The notes under the pieces are model-generated. The model was given only the letters and a program-made list of their open reading frames with translations. It was not told where the DNA came from and ran no database searches. The position numbers were made by a program, and so were the translations under genes. A DNA stretch of 41,929 bases. Source: Basidiobolus heterosporus B8920. Taxonomy: Eukaryota; Basidiobolomycota; Basidiobolomycetes; Basidiobolales; Basidiobolaceae. Of the stretch, positions 1,753 to 37,883 are shown piece after piece (the stretch's first letter is position 1; the number at the start of each line of letters is the position of its first letter). The DNA is taken from assembly GCA_000697455.1 (NCBI GenBank), contig JNET01032418.1:1-41929 (forward strand), read 5' to 3'.

Positions 1753-4700
1753 ATGCTAACCCCGCATCACAAAGAAGAGGATACCTCTTCATTGGCCTCA
1801 ACACAGATATCTACAACAAGTGGTGTGGCCCGCATCCCTCCCACTTCACGGCCTTCTTTTCGAACACAACGCTTTAACAATAGTAGCACTAGTATAGTCA
1901 CCGGCCCAGAATTGGTTAGACGAGAAACAAACGAGGTTCGATATGAGGTTGTGTTCAACGAGCCGGACGTTAACTTAAAGGAAAAATACCATTATACAAC
2001 AAACTATGTTAGAACGACAAAATATACCATTTTAACGTTTCTACCCAAGAATTTATTTTATCAAGTAAGTTTCGGGTCAAGCAAAGGACTTATTCCAAAC
2101 CAAAATACTCTATTGCTAACTCTATTTGTACCGATTTCTCCGTTTTCTTCTTGACTCAAAAATAGTTCCGAAGATTTTATAATTTATATTTCTTACTTGG
2201 AACCATTTTTGTTGCCATCGAACCATCTCTAGAGCCAATCACCCAAATTCTACCTTTGGTTTTTGTGTTAGCCGTTACTGCGATTAAAGACGCACTCGAG
2301 GATTATGTATGTGGCTTTCACAAGTTTAGGATATTCCGACCAGACCTAACTTCAAAGCACATTGACTAATATCAAACATGCATATTAACTTGTATCTAGA
2401 AACGATACAAACAAGATAAGCTTGCCAATAACCAAGTATACGAAATCGTACGTGATGGGAATCTGGAAGATATTGTCTGCAAAAGTATTGTGCCAGGGAA
2501 TATTGTGAGTATATACATATGATGACCTATTTTACGAGATATTAATTCTAATCTGATTGGGAAATTCTAGCTGAAAATTCATAAAAATGAGAAACTTCCG
2601 GCCGATTTAATGATTCTAAGTACTAGTACTGATGACGACACTTGCTTTGTGGAGACTGTAGAGTTGGATGGAGAGACAAACCTAAAACGTAAATTAGCAG
2701 TACCGTTTACTCACAAATCAGATACACCAGAGGTAAGATACTTATTTTGGTATTCGATTTGCTCAGAAATTCAAAGGCTAATTGATTTGGAAAATTAGAA
2801 AATTACCAGTATTCATGGACGAGTTCAATGTGAAGAGCCCAACGAAAGGCTGACTTCATTCGATGGACGTGCTATTGTTCATGATCAGAACGGAGATAGT
2901 GTAGAACCACTTGTACTGGACAACATGTTATTGCGAGGAACTATACTAAGAAATACCGACTATATTTACGGTGTAGCGATATACGTTGGCTCAGATACCA
3001 AGATCTTCCGGTAAGTATTAAGCTATTTCGTAAATAGATAGAGAAGCTAACGTTTCGACTATCCTAGGAACCTCAAAAACTCCAAACTTAAATTCTCAAC
3101 CATGGAGAGGAAGCTAAATAGAATGTTGCTATGGATTTTTGGGTTCAATCTTTTCTTGTTGGTTTCAAGTATTTGTCTAGAATACATTCCTTCGGTAAGC
3201 CTTTACACAACCTGCATGGAGCTCCCTCATTAACCATCCCTCCCTTACATGTAGAATGCACAAAGAAATTATTCTTTCCCAAATGCGTGGTATCTGGTGA
3301 CTCCTTATGAGAAATCAACCAAGGGGAAGGTAAACTATGTACCACTATCTAATCTATTAGAGGATCTCTTTCTGACTTTTAAAATCAACAGAGTGTAGTC
3401 GCGGACTTTATGGCATTCTTTGTAATCTACACTTACGTAATTCCTATATCAGTGTTCGTAACTGTTGAAATTGTTCGTGTGGTACAAATTCTCTTCATGA
3501 ATTGGGATGATCTGATGAAGGCACCCAATGGAGACCGAATGAAACCTCAAAGTTCGAACTTGAATGAGGATCTTGGTGTAGTGGAATACATTTTTTCGGA
3601 TAAAACTGGCACACTTACTCAGAATATCATGAAATTATCCCACTGGTGCATCGGGAAAAGATTGCTCAGCGAACTTAAGCATCCTGGTTCGCTGTTTAAA
3701 CGTTTATCAAATCTAGATAATTCTTCTCAAAATACGAAAGATTTGACCAACACTTACTGTCGAGCACTAGTCTTGTGCCATGAGGTTATGACGGTGGAGA
3801 ATGAGGAAACCGGTGAAATAGACTATGAATCCCCATCCCCTGACGAGATAGCCATCGTCTCTGCACTGAAGGAAAACAAGATAGAACTACTGTCTAGGAG
3901 GAAAGACAACATGACCATCTCATATCTCGGAGAGGAGATAAACTATCCAGTATTGAATGTATTGGAATTTAATTCGGACAGAAAACGTATGTCAGTCATT
4001 GTGAAAACGGAGGATGGGATAGAGTTGTATTGTAAAGGTGCTGATAACATCATCCTAAGTAGACTCAAGGACGGTCAGGATGCGGAAGGAGCTATCTCGG
4101 CCTTGGATCACTTTTCCGACAGCGGTTTACGTACCTTAATGGTTGCCTGGAGAAAACTCGACCCTGAAGTATATGAACACTTTAAAACCGAATACGAGTA
4201 TGCAGAAAGAGCTATCTCTGATCGCCCCAAGAAACTAGCTCAGGCTTGTGAGATGGTTGAAAGGGATTTGCTACTGTTAGGATGTACAGCTATCGAAGAC
4301 AAACTGCAAGACAAAGTCCCTGAAACTATCGAGTATTTACTTAAATGTGACATCAAGATTTGGCTGTTAACTGGAGATAAGCAAGAAACCGCCATTAAAA
4401 TCGGGAAATCTTCCAGATTACTTTCAGCGGACATGGAAGTGATGATTTTAAATGGACGCTCGGAAATTGATTGTCAAAAGAAAATGACCAAGATCGAGAC
4501 TTTTCTGGCTACTCAGGAAACCAACGTTAACGCACTTGTGGTCAATGGCGAAGCCTTGGTGCATATACTTGGTAAAGATGAATTGATCGACAGCTTCTTG
4601 AAAATCGCAGAAATGTGCCACTCAGTAATTTGCTGTCGAGTCACACCATTACAAAAATCTCTGGTTGTGAGAATCGTCAAGAAGAGACTTCAAAAGGTCA

Positions 4701-5671
4701 CACTTGCTATAGGCGATGGTGCCAATGATGTAAGTATGATACAAGAAGCACATGTCGGTATAGGAATCAAGGGTATGGAGGGTGCACAGGCTGTCCGTGC
4801 TAGTGATTACTCTTTTAATGAATTCAAATCTCTTCGGAGATTACTATCTGTGCATGGACGATTTTCCCACCTAAGAATTGCCGAAATGATCTATTACTCC
4901 TTTTACAAGAGTATTGCACTCATCACAGTTCAATATTGGTTTGGCATCCAGAGTGCCTGGTCCGGTCAATCCATCTATATTGATGTCTTCCTAACTCTTT
5001 GGAATGTCATATTCACATGCATCCCACCGATTGCCGCCGCCATTTTCGATAAAGATATTGCTGAAGAGAAGATTGCGCAGTACCCTCGCCTCTACAAAGA
5101 AGTCAAGGATGGATGCTATTGGAATGGCAAACTATGGATTTATTGGGGCTTCTCGTCCTTGTGGCATTCCGCTGCAGTATATATGATCATCTCCTTAATA
5201 CAACAATATGGCAGTTTTTTCGGGGATGGCCAGACGATGGATATCCGAATGCAAGCCTTCTTAGCTGATTCCATGATCCTAATTGTGGTTTATGTGAAAT
5301 TTTTCTTGATGGTCCACTATTGGGTTTGGCCTACATACGTGACTTTACTACTAAGTCTTATCGTGTACCTTCTCTTCTTTTATGTGGGTGAATTCATAGG
5401 CTTCCTGGATAAAGGAGTGTTTGTGGCCATGCACAGAATGCCCGATTACTATTTAGCCATTTTTTTGGGAAGTGTACTCGCACTCTTACCCGATTTGATG
5501 GTCGGCTACATCACCCGCACATTCTGGCCGAACGATGTTCATATCATACAGGAGGAGAGCATCACATGTCCTCATCTCAATCCACCGTCGGTAACCGACT
5601 CTGAGGATACAGCCTCCTCACAACCACCCATGTCCCAAACAAATCGTCGGGCTTCGCTGCTGACCATCTGA
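1753..5671 (+). CDS. P4-type ATPase (phospholipid flippase catalytic subunit)
   Basis: Eight exons: 1753-2064, 2166-2306, 2400-2504, 2571-2732, 2799-3010, 3068-3194, 3255-3329, 3392-5671. Together they give 1137 residues, the usual size for a P4-ATPase. Family knowledge: these pumps move phospholipids from the outer/lumenal to the cytosolic leaflet, usually with a Cdc50 partner. Visible motifs are the actuator DGET (about 219-222), the membrane motif IPISVFVTVE (P4 PISL equivalent), the phosphorylation loop DKTGTLTQN with Asp near residue 448, the nucleotide-domain YCKGADNII, TGDKQETA, and the hinge GDGANDVSMIQ. Two N-terminal membrane segments precede the actuator and about six hydrophobic segments follow the hinge. 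The C-tail is Ser/Thr/Pro-rich. Some residues before the phosphorylation motif differ from the Drs2/ATP8A consensus (LGVVEYIF instead of LGQIEYIF), so I leave the subfamily open. Confidence 0.95.
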
Positions 5672-6082
5672 GCGAAAGAGAGGAGTTCACCAGTATTACC
5701 AAATACTTTCAATCCTATGAGCATGTATATTCCTTAATTCATCTGGGGGAGTAACTTGTCAAATACAGCATAGATCAGTTTATACACAAGTTAATTATTT
5801 GGTGATTTGTTTCATTGTTCAATCCGTCAGACATTCGGTCAAGTTAGAGATCAAAATTTTATATACTAGGGAAATGACAGCTGAACAGATAGACACTAAT
5901 CTAATCAAGAATAATACTCCCTGGATGTGACTTTAGTGGTGAGAGCTTTCCAAAATACAACGGGTACCAGCACCTCTTTAAATATGTGAATGATGAATGA
6001 TTTTGTAAATAGTATCAGGCGGTTGTATACCAGGATGAATGCAATATAACCCTAATCAGTTCTCTTAGGTGTTAATGCGCAC
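5672..6082. other. Convergent intergenic region
   Basis: AT-rich sequence between the stops of the P4-ATPase (+) and the HERP-like gene (-). It should carry both 3' ends. No further gene is visible. Confidence 0.5.
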
Positions 6083-7465
6083 TCAAAACATTTCATTTTC
6101 AATATCTTCAGCTGGAATGTCTCGAATCTGATCACTAGGGATGATTGACCTGAAGAACGTGAAGACTGCAACTTTAAGAATACCCAATGTATCCTGGGGT
6201 GGCTCTTGTAGATGAGTGTCTTGCTGGGATGGCTGGTTTTCCTGTTGTTGAGATTGAGATTGAGGTTGTTGTGGTTGTGGTTGTGGTTGTGGCTGTGTCT
6301 GTGTCTGTGGCTGCTGGGTTGGATTTGGGTTCGGAAGTGGTGGCTGACCTGGGTTCTGATGATTTGGTGGAAATATGTCGGGTGGGTTTCTAGGGTTCAA
6401 TTGGTTCAATTGGTTGATTTGTACGCGCACAACACGCAGTCTACCAGTTTGATACCTACGAATCGATTTTAGTGGTTGTCACTTACGATGAACATACTAA
6501 TTCTAATAATATACGAATACTTACAAGTAGATCACCATACAGACTAACGAAATAAGTATCATCCTTTCAAAGCTTGCCCCCTGGCCAAACAGATATGCAA
6601 AGAAAACCAATCTGAATACCAGCCATAAGGAATGCACTGCTTGACGATGTCGTTGGGCCCCGTTCATCTCAGGAGGAATTAGATTTGGAGGCATCGGTGC
6701 CATGAGTGGCTCAGGAGCCTCTAGAGGATTAGCGATACCAGGCCCATAATTCATCGGATATCCAATGTTTGGGGGTAATTGGTTTGGTGTTTGCATTAGG
6801 TAAGGTAGACCACTGGATAACTGTTAGCACTTTGTGATTACAGTAGTGTTATGTATTTACTTTACTTACTTTATCAAAACATATTGATACTGGTACGATA
6901 AGCCCAGGTTGGTCACCAAATGAGGAGGAATGGCAGCATTTTCAGGTAGTGTGCCGAAAGCGGAACCAGCAGTAGCTGGCGGAGAAGCAGTTGGAGCTTG
7001 ATAAAAGGAGTTTTCGAAGGGTTCATCAAATTGTGACTGGAAGCGCTGACGGAGAGAGTTGGCTGCATTAAGGCCATAAGTGCTAGAGACTTGGTTAGCA
7101 AAAGTAGAACAGGTTTGGGGTTGTAGTTCCGAGGTAAGGCCTGATTTCACCACCAAGTGGAAGACTTGAGGAGCAGATAAATCAACCTATAATAGCAAGT
7201 CATTAAATGTGGTAGACAAAATGACAAAAGATTTAAAGGCTACCTTCTTAAATATATCTTTAATTACTTCCTCATTGGCTAGAATCTTTCCCTGAAAAAT
7301 CAACCGCTGATCCTCGAGGCTTGGATGCGCTTCTAAGGTGTCGTGTATTTGTTGCTTGATGGAAGTGATGTTGGCTTCAGGGGTAGTATTTATGTGATAA
7401 TCTTTGGGGATTGAACTGTTAGGTGATCGCACATAAATCTGTATTACACAATCCGAGGAACTCAT
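6083..7465 (-). CDS. HERP/HERPUD-like ubiquitin-domain ER membrane protein
   Basis: Four exons on the minus strand: 7465-7244, 7186-6870, 6812-6525, 6455-6083, giving 399 residues. Exon 1 and the start of exon 2 encode a ubiquitin-like fold (VIQIYVRSP..., LIFQGKIL, VFHLVVKSG). Exon 3 ends in a hydrophobic hairpin (WLVFRLVFFAYLF and MILISLVCMVIYL, about residues 230-277). Exon 4 is a Gln/Pro-rich linker followed by a C-terminal segment ILKVAVFTFFRSIIP. That order (UBL, hairpin, Pro-rich linker, terminal hydrophobic helix before a short tail) is the architecture of HERP. HERP proteins scaffold the Hrd1 ubiquitin ligase in ER-associated degradation; a role here is inferred. The ATG at 7463-7465 is used; a GTG just upstream is not needed. 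The exon 2/3 junction uses acceptor ATCCAG, because the nearer acceptor would create a stop. Confidence 0.75.
6245..6325 (+). repeat. Degenerate TTGTGG/TGTGTC hexamer repeat encoding Gln/Pro
   Basis: A short run of GTGGTTGTGGTTGTGG-like units drifts into TGTGTCTGTGTCTGTGG. On the minus strand it encodes the alternating Gln, Pro, Thr and Ser stretch of the HERP-like linker. The units keep the frame, and length variation between strains is likely. Confidence 0.75.
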
Positions 7466-14740: not shown

Positions 14741-16861
14741 TTAAGGTTTGTTAATCGAGTTACTGGTAAACTTCAAGTAGAAATTGATGCAAACTGCAAA
14801 GAATAGAACGACAACTAGAATAACTGGACCAAATCTATCATCGTAAGGACCGGCTCTTCTTTGGCGGATTTGTTCAGCTCTCCACTGATATAAGATTAAT
14901 GAATAAATCATCACTCCCATTGAGATGAGGGTAAATAGAACACCAGAGATTTGCCCAACGCTATCGCCAAAATTCAATAAACCAAGAGCAAGTCCTCCAA
15001 GAACAATAGTGAAATGTAACCATGACAAGAAAGTACGCTCGTTAGCAAAGAAGACTTTAGGCTCAACACGAACTGGAATGGCAATACGTTTTGCAGGCTG
15101 GCGTACTTTAGGTGCCTCAGGAGAAGGTGTGCGGGATCTGTTGAACAGGCCACTGAAAAATCCAGCGCCATTCGTCTTCCGAGAGCGACTACGGGATTCA
15201 CGAAGAAGAGGAGCATTTTCATCATATTCGTTATCGGTAGTTTCCCTGGCTTTCTGTCTAGAAGAGTTAGTTCTCTGGTAAGACCCATCTACAACTACTT
15301 GGATCTCAGGCTCTTGGTGGCGGGATGAGCGATTGCGGCGTGAGGAGCCATACGAAGATGCCCTATCTTCATTGCTATGGCTACTTCCAGAATCCTTGAT
15401 CGAAAGAAGTTCTCTATTTGGGGACTTGCGAATATCTTTGTCCATTTGTGGAAGCCAGAATGGAAGAAGAGAAACACGAGATTCTAGTAGAGTGGAGACA
15501 CCATGTATATATTTGGAAAATTTGGGAACTGATTCAACCAGGTGGCTCTCGACCAGATTAGAAACCCAGTGAGGTGGCTCCGTGCCATGTTGGGTTTGTA
15601 GTTTAACTTCAAGGACAGCATAAGGGAAGCGACAGACATCAGAATCGGCCAATTGAGAAAAGGGGTAGTCGGTATCAATGTCGGTACGACGCCAGTTTTT
15701 GCCTGATCTTTCAACACCATCAAGATTATCCTCGCGGATCAATGTAAGCTCAGTATCGAGCGAGATACGAACACGAGCATCACCAGGGAGCTGGAATGCT
15801 GTACGGTTGTAGAAAGTTCTCACGGTAGGGTTAAGCTTCTTGGTAATGACAGTATACTGGATTTCACTGGAGAGTTGCTCAAGTTCTTTGAGATCCTTCT
15901 CGGATTTGGCTCCTCTTTCCCGTAATTTTTGAATGGTGTTGTCCATAGTATAATCGCCACAAAGGTAGTCGTTGACATATTTTTCCTTAAGCGGGAACCT
16001 TTCTTTTACACTCTTCTCGCCGGTCCAATCTTCACGGTGAGTTTTTCTTTCAATGAAAATTTCATTGTTATTAGAATTGCCGTACCAGCGAAGACGAATT
16101 GCCTCAGCCCCTTCAGATTTCTCGAGGCGACCTGTATACAAGTCGAAGGAATCATTGTCAAAGTATACTGAGCTGACAGCTGGGTTAAAATCACCGCCCT
16201 CTTTTGCGTTGTACACGAGGACAGGCAAATACTTCAAAATTAGGAGTTTGACTTCCATGACGTTGTCAGGATGAACCCAATATTTTGTGGTTTGACGAAT
16301 GAAATTTTGAGAACCACCAGCGGGTGCGGATGATTTGCCACTACCTGTTTGACCACAGTTGCGAACAATATCATAGAGTTTAGAAAGTTTCAATAAGAGC
16401 GTATCGAAGTTCTCTTTGTAGAAAGGACGAGCGTTCAAACGGACCATAAACATAGGCTTGAGCGAGTAGGTAGTGTGCTTATCATGCTTTTTGATAATCT
16501 TAAGGAAACCGGAATAATTGAGTCTAGTGAATTTTGCCAATTCATTAACCTCAGCAATAACGCGGTTAATATCCTCCTCAACTTCAGCATAGTCCTGTTC
16601 GGAAGCCTCCGAGTCTTTGGAAAGTTTCTTCACAGTCCGTTCACTGAACTCAACTCTTCTGTTGATTTCACCGAGTTTCACTGTTTGGAAAGTGAAAACC
16701 TTCTCCAATTCCTTTTCCAAAAACTCGACAAACTTGGCTTCGTCTTTTTCTGTGAATTCGCTAAGGCGTTCTTTCAACATACGCTTGAGGCCGTCATAGT
16801 CAAGATAGTAGAAACGCCACTCAGGGTACAAAATTTCTTGTAGCTGTGAACCGAACTTCAT
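14741..16861 (-). CDS. VTC4: Vtc4, catalytic subunit of the vacuolar polyphosphate polymerase
   Basis: Single coding exon, 706 residues. An N-terminal SPX domain ([15 protein letters not shown]..., with the lysine cluster [10 protein letters not shown] that in SPX proteins binds inositol pyrophosphates) is followed by the tunnel-shaped polymerase domain, about residues 190-480. That domain keeps the charged residues expected of a catalytic subunit: [40 protein letters not shown] and [12 protein letters not shown] Ser/Arg-rich linker leads to a DUF202-type membrane domain with three helices ([19 protein letters not shown]..., [10 protein letters not shown]). The intact basic/acidic set favours Vtc4 over the accessory Vtc2/3. 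It uses ATP to make polyphosphate and translocates it into the vacuole. Vtc1 is encoded nearby, transcribed away from it. Confidence 0.95.
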
Positions 16862-16877
16862 TGTGCTTTAATATGAA

Positions 16878-28652: not shown

Positions 28653-29896
28653 ATGGCCGCACAACAAGAGTTCACTAAAGTCTGGAGTATTGAAGGTAAA
28701 GGTCTCAAGCTGGAGACTGCCGAAGATGTTCAGGAATTCGTCAAAGAAATCATAGCTTTTGAAGGACTTGAAGTGGTCATCATGAGCGGAAACACCGTTG
28801 GTGTCGAAGCCGGTAAAGCTTTAGCTGAAGCTTTTAAGCAAAAGAAGACTTTGAAGGTATAGTAAGCGTTGAAAGTGATATTTTCTCATAAAGGTTAGAG
28901 TGCTCACTTTGCGGTTTCTGGTTTTAGATTATGAACTTGAGTGATATCTTTACTGGACGTCTTCGTTCAGAGATTCCACCTGTTTTGAAGGCCATCTGTG
29001 ATGCTCTTGAAGACAAAGAAGAACTCATCGAATTGAACTTGAGTGATAACGCCTTTGGACCCGCTGGTGCTGAACCTATGGTTGATTTCTTAACTAACAA
29101 CCGTCATCTTCAAGTTTTGAAGCTTAACAATAACGGACTTGGTGTCCAAGGTGGTAATCTTATTGCCAAGGCCTTGTTAGCTGCCCAAGAGAAGAATGTC
29201 GCTGAAGGACGTTCTTCTTCTCTCAGAACTATTATCGCTGGTCGTAACAGACTTGAGAATGGGTCCTCCAAAGCCCTTGCTGAGGCTTTCGAAGCTCACG
29301 GCACCCTCAGAGAGATTCGTCTCCCTCAAAATGGTATCCGTCCTGAAGGTATTGAGTTGTTGGCCAAGTCCTTGGCCAAGTGCCCACATCTTGAAGTTCT
29401 TGACCTTCAAGACAACACCTTCACTGATGTAGGAGCTAGAGCAGTTGCTGATGCTTTGCCTTCTTGGACCAAATTGTCAGTCTTAAACATCGGTGACTGT
29501 CTTCTTGGTAAGCGTGGTGGAGTAGCAATCGCCGAGGCTCTTAAGACTGGACATGAGTGCTTAACAGAGCTGATTCTCACTTACAATGAAATCCAACAAG
29601 ATGCCGCGGAAATCCTTGCTGATGCTATTTCAGGCATGAAGAACCTTCGTACTCTTGAACTCAATGGTAATTACTTCCCCGAAGACAGTGATGTCGTTGA
29701 CAAAATCCGTGAAATTCTTTCGGAAAATGGGAATGAGGAAGCTCTCGGTTCTCTTTCTGATATGGAGGAATTGAGCGATGAAGAGGATGAAGAGGCACCA
29801 TCAGACGAAGAAGAGGACGAGGAGGAAGAGGAAGAGGAGAAGGAAACTGATTCTGTCGATGAGCTTGCTGACAAACTCGCTTTCGTCAAGGTCTAA
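28653..29896 (+). CDS. RNA1: Ran GTPase-activating protein (RanGAP / Rna1)
   Basis: Two exons, 28653-28856 and 28928-29896, giving 390 residues, the size of fission-yeast Rna1 (386). It is a leucine-rich-repeat protein of the RanGAP type: MNLSDIFTGRL with the catalytic Arg at residue 79, LSDNAFGPAGAEPMVDFL, LNNNGLG, IIAGRNRLENGS, QNGIRPEGIELL, LDLQDNTF, LTYNEIQQDAAEIL and LELNGNYF. It ends in a long Glu/Asp tail (29761-29860). It stimulates GTP hydrolysis by Ran in the cytoplasm and so sets the direction of nuclear transport. The intron falls just before the arginine-finger loop and the phase-0 junction (LK|IMNLSD) restores it exactly. Confidence 0.97.
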
Positions 29897-35030: not shown

Positions 35031-37883
35031 ATGTCGTGGGCATCTTCGGATAATTTACAAATGACACAAGAAGAACACGTAGTAAGTGCCCACTTGCTCA
35101 ACCTCACTTTGCAGTGGCGTAAAATCTTGATCGTGACATTTAAATTCACACCAACCCTTTATTTCATAGCCTTCTACTACTAATCAAGATGGCCAAACGT
35201 GGTCAGAACATCTGATGCCTGATGGTAGAACATATTACTATAACTCAGTAACGAAACAAAGTCTTTGGGAAAAACCCGTAGATTTTCCTGGGGATGGCAA
35301 GGTATTATACGCGCAAGCTGCTCGAATTTGGTCATTGAGTACTAATACAACCCTCCCATTACATGCAGAAAAAGCCTAAAAACGCGGTGTGGAAGGAGTA
35401 TTTGACAAAAGAGGGCAAAAAATACTACTACAACACTGAAACCAAGGTTACCACTTGGGAAGCACCTAGCGATTTGGAAGGTATTCTCAAATATGAATAT
35501 TTTAGTTCGACGAATGACTGATTTATAACTCAATCTAAGAAAATGCGGTTGCTTCTAATTCTCCTAACGCTAACTCAGTCCAGAAATCTACTACCACGAC
35601 TACCACTACCAACACCAGCACAACCACCGTATCGCAACCTTCTGAAAATTCTACTTCGTGGAAAGAATACACCACAGAGGCTGTCTCTTATACACATCTA
35701 AGAGGCAGAGACGGCATTTTTCAAGTTACTCAAAGACACGGTTAGCAGAAGCACGTAACTGCTCTTACACAACCAAATTCTCATATAATTTGCATCTCAA
35801 GGGAGTCACATCGACATGGTCTTGGGAACAAACCATGAGGGCGATTATCAGTCATCCTATTTATCGCTCTTTGAAATCGTTGGCTGAAAGAAAACAAGCT
35901 TTTCAGAAATATGTCCAAGAGAGAAGAAGAATTGAAGAGGTAAATTGAATGGTAAACGCCTTCGCGCTATCTTCACTCGTTACTAAACTAAGTTCACTAC
36001 AGGAAGAATATAAGGTCAGAACTCTCAAGAATCGCGGAGACTTTCTCCTGATGTTGGAGAAGCATCCTGAGATCACATCATCATTTACCTGGAGGTTTGC
36101 CAATACAATTTCTTAGCTCTGTGGCATTTTAATCAACATGACTTTACCTAGGAAAGCAGCGGAGGTTCTGCGACACGATTCCACATTCCAACAAATCCGA
36201 GATGAGAAAGAGATGCGAGGATATTATGAAGATTTCCTTTATGAGGTGAAAAAAAGAGAGAAGGTAAAAGCTTTGCTGATATGTACCAATGGGTTTAGTA
36301 CGGAGAGTTAATTACCTTCTCCGAATTTTAGGATCAAGAACGTATCAAACGTAAAGAAGGCATGGAGAGATTCTCTCAACTTCTCGAGGAGATTCCTGAG
36401 ATTACCAGAGAGACTCGCTGGAGGGATGCACAGGCCATTTTCAGAGGATCCCCAGGCTTCAAGGATGTATCTTGGGAGGCTATGGATGCCTTGGACTTTT
36501 TAGCAGTCTTCGAGGAACACGTCAAGAAACTAGAGGACGAATACATCAACAAAAGGAAGAAGGAAAAGGAGGCCCGCATTCGTACGGAGCGCAAGAATAG
36601 AGATGCCATCAGGGTAAATATTCTATCATCATCCAGTTTGATATTCGTTACCAACCTTTTTTCTTGCAGGAGTTGATCGACAATTCGATTAGATCTGGGC
36701 AAATCACTGTAAGATCTCGTTGGCAGGATTTCTATCCTCTAGTAAAGGATCACGAATGCTACATCAGCATGTTGGGCCAGCCAGGATCCAGCCCATTGGA
36801 GCTCTTCTGGGATGCTATTGAAATTCTCGATGAGAAAATATACCAAAAGCGAAAATATGTGAATGACATCTTAAAAGTAACGAGATCAACAATCTAAGAG
36901 TTAGATGCCATGTATTAACTTATCTTATTGGAACGTAGGAGAAAAATATCACTGTCACTCCTGATGATACCTTCAGTTCATTTGTCGAAGTGTTGAGAGA
37001 TTTTGAGGAAGCTTCTACCATTTCCGAGGAAGAAATGAAAACCATTTTCGAACAGGTTAGCCTTTTTGCCTCGTGGCTGCTTGATATCCTTGACCAACCA
37101 CCTTGTTCCATTTTAGATTCAAAAGAAAGCTAAAAGTAGACAGAAGGAGGAGCAAAGAAAGGAGCAGAAGCGCAAAAGAAGAATCGCAGATGATTTCAAG
37201 TACCTCCTTAAGCATTTGAAGCCTCAAATCACAACCGATACCAAATGGAGTGAGGTAGATAAATTGGTTAAACTCATGGATACTTTATAAGCTAACAGCC
37301 CTACTAGATACGTTCTGCGATTGAAAACGATGAAGATTTCAAAGCGGTGGAGTCAGAGGAGGAGCGTCAGCACATATTCCAGAAGTACTTGGATAGATTG
37401 AAGGTGAGCCATGCATATTATACTTTTCAATTCCTACTTTATTCATTCTTGGCCTTGAATAGGAGAAGGAAAAGGAACGTGCCGAAGAAAGTGAGGAAGG
37501 TACAATCAAGGGTGAAGAGGGTGAGCTGGAGGATAAAGAGTCTTCGCGCAAAAGAAAGCATAAAAAGGATCGCAAGAAGAAGCATCATAAGTCACGACGC
37601 CATAGATATGACTCCGATGTATCTGATAGTGACGATGAGCGTAGAAGGCATAAGAAAAAGGTATTCCTTGTATTACTTGTCTGCTGGTTTATTTTGAAGT
37701 ACCCAACACATTTTTTCATAACACTAGAAATCCAAACGTGATGAGGACGCTATGAGTACTTCTAGTATCGAAGAGGGTGAAGCTAGGGATGATGACTATG
37801 ACTACCAACATCGATCCCATCGCAAATCTCACCGCGAGAGCCACTCGAGGTCAAGAAAAGCTAGAGATTATTATGCAGACTAA
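35031..37883 (+). CDS. PRP40: Prp40-like U1 snRNP splicing factor (WW-FF), frame broken by adapter sequence
   Basis: Fourteen exons: 35031-35081, 35170-35301, 35369-35480, 35540-35740, 35802-35939, 36003-36094, 36152-36263, 36332-36613, 36670-36876, 36939-37055, 37117-37254, 37308-37403, 37463-37660, 37728-37883. Exons 2 and 3 each encode a WW domain ([16 protein letters not shown]...[21 protein letters not shown]...TWEAP). Serial FF domains follow ([60 protein letters not shown]), ending in a charged Arg/Ser/Lys tail. Prp40 bridges the 5' and 3' splice sites in early spliceosomes. Exon 4 is 25 nt too long and frameshifted because of an adapter-like insertion (35681-35705). Ignoring those bases, all phases close at 668 residues. 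Confidence 0.93.
35681..35705 (+). other. Tn5 mosaic-end (Nextera adapter) sequence inside PRP40 exon 4
   Basis: Bases 35681-35699 read CTGTCTCTTATACACATCT, exactly the engineered 19-bp Tn5 mosaic end used in tagmentation libraries. AA and a repeat of the preceding GAGG (35677-35680 and 35702-35705) follow. The natural Tn5 outside and inside ends differ from it. The extra 25 nt shift PRP40 out of frame, and on both sides of it the normal protein (YTTE | [11 protein letters not shown]) continues. Confidence 0.95.

Follow-up and report, generated by a model that had tools for sequence, protein, structure and literature searches.

The window analyzed here, a 41,929-nt stretch of Basidiobolus heterosporus B8920 (contig JNET01032418.1), raises the question of how a short engineered sequence came to lie within the coding sequence of a splicing-factor gene, PRP40, and whether that gene is otherwise intact. 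The sequence CTGTCTCTTATACACATCT, foreign to the genome, occupies positions 35681-35699 of the forward strand and is the sole match in the window even with up to three mismatches; in a shuffle control, 0 of 100 shuffles gave any match at this threshold. It is identical, letter for letter and at exactly 19 nt, to the Tn5MErev oligo of PMC4248319, and the Tn5 mosaic end given in PMC2229646 has the same letters. This identity bears out an earlier sequence-only reading, which had named the 19-mer as the engineered Tn5/Nextera mosaic end and had taken it for an assembly artefact, neither a mobile element nor a pseudogene. We agree: that the 19-mer is an adapter artefact is virtually certain, and its presence in PRP40 is technical, with no biology behind it. 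Elsewhere the window holds ordinary neighbors, namely a phospholipid-translocating P-type ATPase (3383-5671), an SPX-VTC protein (14741-16867) and a leucine-rich-repeat protein (28928-29896).

The PRP40 copy is one of many, as the earlier reading had suspected when it proposed that other adapter scars may exist. A search of 428 contigs of the assembly (8,137,145 bases) returned 64 exact copies in 27 contigs (36 on the forward strand and 28 on the reverse), where about 6e-5 copies would be expected by chance in 8.14 Mb on both strands; the reversed 19-mer, used as a control, returned none. Searches of the assembly with one or two mismatches added no further place among the matches listed, and such mismatch counts are lower bounds. 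Two part-patterns, the initial 14 bases and the final 13 bases of the 19-mer, each match the same 64 places only, and these searches revealed no truncated copies (the reversed control of the 13-base part gave two chance matches). All 64 copies are followed directly by non-adapter sequence. None of the 64 is followed by an i5 or i7 index tail (CCGAGC.. or GACGCTG..), and none is part of a 38-bp double mate-pair junction, in which CTGTCTCTTATACACATCT would be followed at once by AGATGTGTATAAGAGACAG. The flanks differ between loci, and no N was found in the 159,413 bases of this genome's sequence that were read (overlaps counted twice). Twenty-one of the copies are single and lie in twenty contigs; the other 43 form tandem arrays in seven contigs.

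Probable sequence loss at the PRP40 joint

Pfam matches at the site comprise WW and FF domains, with WW before FF, identifying the gene as PRP40, the WW-FF protein of the U1 snRNP. Its closest relatives are proteins of Basidiobolus ranarum (P0001, 67% identical) and Basidiobolus meristosporus (P0002, 69%), and all remaining listed homologues are at most 44% identical. Judged by this one protein, the source is probably a fungus in Basidiobolaceae or close to that family. The left piece (35200-35680, forward strand) consists of exon parts 35200-35301, 35369-35480 and 35540-35680, with splice sites placed by eye; from 35200 on it encodes two WW domains and then the opening residues, WKEYTTE, of a third, and it ends in ..CACAGAGG directly before the 19-mer. 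The right piece begins on the same strand at 35700-35740, where AAGAG fits a native ..EE and is followed by a 12-residue stretch. Further forward-strand exons between 35802 and 37200 carry the FF domains (35802-35939, 36003-36094, 36152-36263, 36332-36613, 36670-36876, 36939-37055, and from 37117 onward). The placement of the 19-mer inside a coding PRP40 exon is thus confirmed, with the WW piece on one side and the FF piece on the other, and the conserved protein block reported there also stands, as an 18-residue stretch kept in both Basidiobolus proteins with at most one change.

The adapter shifts the reading frame of PRP40, such that the left frame, read through it, meets a TAG stop at 35743-35745 (forward strand), and the frames on the two sides agree once the adapter is removed. 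The left piece aligns up to residue 151 of P0001 and 124 of P0002, and the right piece (AETAFF..) begins at residues 234 and 209, respectively; between these limits, counted up to the A of AETAFF, the homologues have 82 (P0001) and 84 (P0002) residues. The left flank covers the first seven residues of the third WW domain, and about 80 codons are skipped before the right flank takes over. The residues absent here, present in both homologues, are the rest of the third WW domain (DGRKYYHN..TTWEMPAE..) and a linker ending in ..KTKEE. On this comparison, some 240-246 coding nt, plus any intron, appear to be missing, and the joint is best read as a loss of sequence containing 19 foreign bases rather than as a clean insertion. 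The earlier reading had described a clean 25-nt insert, made up of the adapter, AA and a 4-bp repeat of the flank (GAGG), whose exact removal would restore the gene. That description does not hold. The homologues read ..KTKEEAETAFF, and the AA GAG that follows the adapter fits (x)AA GAG, or ..E E; because of this fit to the end of the homologue linker, AAGAG is best read as native sequence. Neither the removal of 19 nt nor that of 25 nt would restore PRP40, because the 240-246 nt and any intron would still be missing. Nor is the frame match without the adapter proof of a clean insertion, because the glycerol kinase joint described below, also with loss, matches only when the adapter is kept.

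A search of the 428 contigs for the lost part recovered just the WW domains of PRP40 itself, plus weaker matches in three further contigs. The DNA spanning the joint has no second copy in these contigs and matches only its own place. The third WW domain is present in the two Basidiobolus proteins and absent from the eight other fungal proteins aligned. A natural loss of the domain in this species is possible, because those eight proteins lack it as well; sequence loss at four other joints makes this less likely.

Single-copy joints and tandem arrays

Five of the 21 single-copy joints, PRP40 and four others, were tested, having been picked because a known family lies at the joint. Sequence is lost at all five, and at three of them the rest of the gene continues beyond the adapter in the same orientation. 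In the glycerol kinase of C303, the left piece ends near residue 135 of 2d4w and the right piece begins at 180, leaving about 44 residues missing; here the frame is open through the adapter and mismatched without it. In a proton-ATPase-like gene of C294, the left piece ends at residue 162 of PMA1 chains and the right piece begins at 770, a loss of about 607 codons. This contig carries tandem proton-ATPase-like genes at 2-493, 1932-4211 and 5081-6092, of which one is complete over the family profile, one is cut by the contig start, and one lacks its middle at the adapter. Because of these tandem copies, part of the C294 loss is possibly a jump between paralogues. The NagA match of C391 breaks off at profile position 291 of 380, next to the adapter, and the contig gave no other match. 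In a second Hsp20 gene, on C56, the frame has come to profile position 43 of 102 when it meets the adapter; the genome search carries the match only slightly farther, to position 53, across a stop and a few bases beyond the adapter.

Other sequences seen beside the adapter include a GH32 gene at C412, a 188-aa frame without a family at C155, and, by eye, Copia-type retrotransposon-like open frames in the right flanks of L160 (C384) and L175 (C279). Translated, the adapter yields peptides such as RDVYKRQ, IDVYKRQ and EMCIRD (L033, L166 and the C303 joint), which could serve as a quick contamination tag for protein sets.

The tandem arrays lie in contigs C136, C189, C228, C307, C401, C123 and C313 (loci L016, L018, L020, L025, L033, L035 and L036). 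Their units are exact tandem repeats with one copy of the 19-mer each, except in C401, where each unit has two in opposite directions. Periods range from 171 to 502 nt, and total lengths fall within a narrow range: period 174 for a total of 1518, 380 for 1521, 217 for 1519, 171 for 1541, 268 for 1589, 456 for 1349 and 502 for 1487 (mean 1503, sd 75, range 1349-1589). Copy number drops as period rises (rho -0.96), and total length is not significantly related to period (rho -0.54, p 0.22). When copy numbers were permuted over periods, 2 of 5040 orders were as tight, the observed order included. Natural tandem arrays have no obvious reason to share a fixed total length. The seven arrays are very probably not biology, and the fixed length near 1.5 kb points to an assembly or gap-closing step, in which a program may have kept unrolling a loop until a length limit or an estimated gap size was reached. 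The long open frame of the C189 array gave no match in a homologue search; Pfam reports Laminin_G_3 and a weak Arm_4 match for the gene in this array. The idea that short homology primed the joins was also set aside, since the native sequence before the repeat unit in C313 and C123 is, by eye, unlike the 3' end of the adapter.

Origin of the joints and competing explanations

The account we favor, and consider likely, is that these joints were mis-closed, with adapter-tipped dead ends being joined to other genomic pieces. The library would have been of the Tn5 tagmentation (Nextera-type) kind, with the 19-mer as its mosaic-end oligo. Sequences running past the end of a genomic fragment into an adapter whose index tail was missing or had been trimmed would leave dead ends of the form "genome + 19-mer", and a later assembly, scaffolding or gap-closing step may have attached these dead ends straight to other pieces. 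That extra step must be assumed, because all 64 copies are tail-free and inside contigs, whereas the copies in prokaryote records are mostly tailed and at contig ends. At three of the five tested joints, the attached piece is a stretch from farther along in the gene, oriented alike. The sequence between the joined pieces would be lost; in PRP40, the presumed losses are the linker that leads to the first FF domain and most of the third WW domain. A dead end looping back on its own fragment would instead give false tandem copies, written out to about 1.5 kb.

The clean insertion of the earlier reading, in which 25 nt comprising the adapter and a short target repeat were added to an exon of PRP40 that lacks nothing, would agree with the frame match across the joint and with the absence of a third WW domain from the eight aligned proteins from outside Basidiobolus. 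We consider it improbable. The beginning of that domain (WKEYTTE) is encoded in the left flank, the 82 or 84 residues that come next in the homologues are absent, and the four other tested joints show sequence loss as well. AAGAG fits native EE codons; moreover, the Tn5 repeat is 9 bp according to PMC4248319, against the 4 bp proposed.

A native origin, as a natural Tn5/IS50-related mobile element or some other 19-bp repeat of this genome, is exceedingly improbable. It could draw on the presence of 64 copies in scattered places, but the 19-mer is that of the engineered oligo, with no diverged copy among the matches listed, and the window site has no 9-bp repeat: by eye, its two flanks have no more than AGAGG in common beside the adapter, where AAGAG fits native codons. 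The wild-type Tn5 outside end gave 0 matches at up to one mismatch. Unrelated prokaryote records also contain this 19-mer, in most cases followed by index tails of the kit. The IS50 transposase profile PF02281 had 0 matches in this genome, and likewise 0 in the control genomes.

Alternatively, mate-pair junction molecules, in which the 19-bp mosaic end was blunt-ligated to genomic DNA during circularization, could have been assembled as such. Mate-pair kits list a single junction adapter. As such molecules would be, each of the 64 copies is exactly 19 bases long, flanked left and right by non-adapter sequence and free of an index tail, and small circles would account for the fragment-adapter-fragment repeats of the arrays. 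However, a circle joins an end to an upstream start, whereas the PRP40 and glycerol kinase joints jump forward in the gene, as does the ATPase joint, though among tandem paralogues, and the constant array length of about 1.5 kb suggests a software origin. We judge this explanation rather unlikely, if clearly less so than a clean insertion; it overlaps with mis-closed joints over the origin of the dead ends, and the probabilities of the two do not sum to one.

If joints were mis-closed in this way, internal tail-free mosaic ends may be a reliable flag for them, each marking lost sequence or a false array of about 1.5 kb, a generalization for which we see the chances as evenly balanced. Should it be true, a plain scan for the 19-mer could reveal unnoticed deletions and spurious repeats in draft genomes already published. 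For annotators of this draft, deleting the adapter alone is insufficient, as coding sequence is missing at all five tested joints, and the seven arrays would be annotated as tandem repeats. The 19-mer offers a quick quality check for this draft and for others.

Comparison with other adapter-contaminated records

Adapter contamination of public assemblies, at contig ends, is already known from PMC11536531 (Moeller et al. 2024), according to which library adapters carried into assembled contigs lower accuracy and contiguity. As described there, the adapters are Illumina universal adapters concentrated at contig ends; here a Tn5 mosaic end lies inside contigs of a fungal draft, tail-free, at joints with missing or falsely repeated sequence. 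Our scan of prokaryote genomes found the 19-mer in at least 119 stretches. Among the matches listed, these loci hold 133 copies, of which 121 are at outward-facing contig ends (99 carrying i5 or i7 tails, 20 where the contig stops with the last base of the 19-mer, and 2 with other ends) and 12 are internal (4 with tails, 7 with 1-4 bases and then a run of N, and 1, at L108, with other sequence). In prokaryote records, then, the artefact usually sits at a contig end with its tail kept, in contrast to this draft, where all 64 copies are tail-free and inside contigs.

The nearest likeness is in seven Doro1-named scaffolds of Streptomyces and Actinoplanes (L046, L078, L099, L115, L131, L144 and L155), which have an internal mosaic end among the matches listed. 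As here, the adapter lies inside the scaffold, at an apparently unfinished join. In those scaffolds 1-4 bases and then a run of N follow the 19-mer, some of which runs might be masks, since the collection masks a few stretches as N; the sequence read in the present draft contains no N. Compared with the Tn5 mosaic end and Tn5MErev themselves, the window copy has identical letters and differs from a transposon end in that its site lacks the 9-bp target repeat, the copy being an assembly scar.
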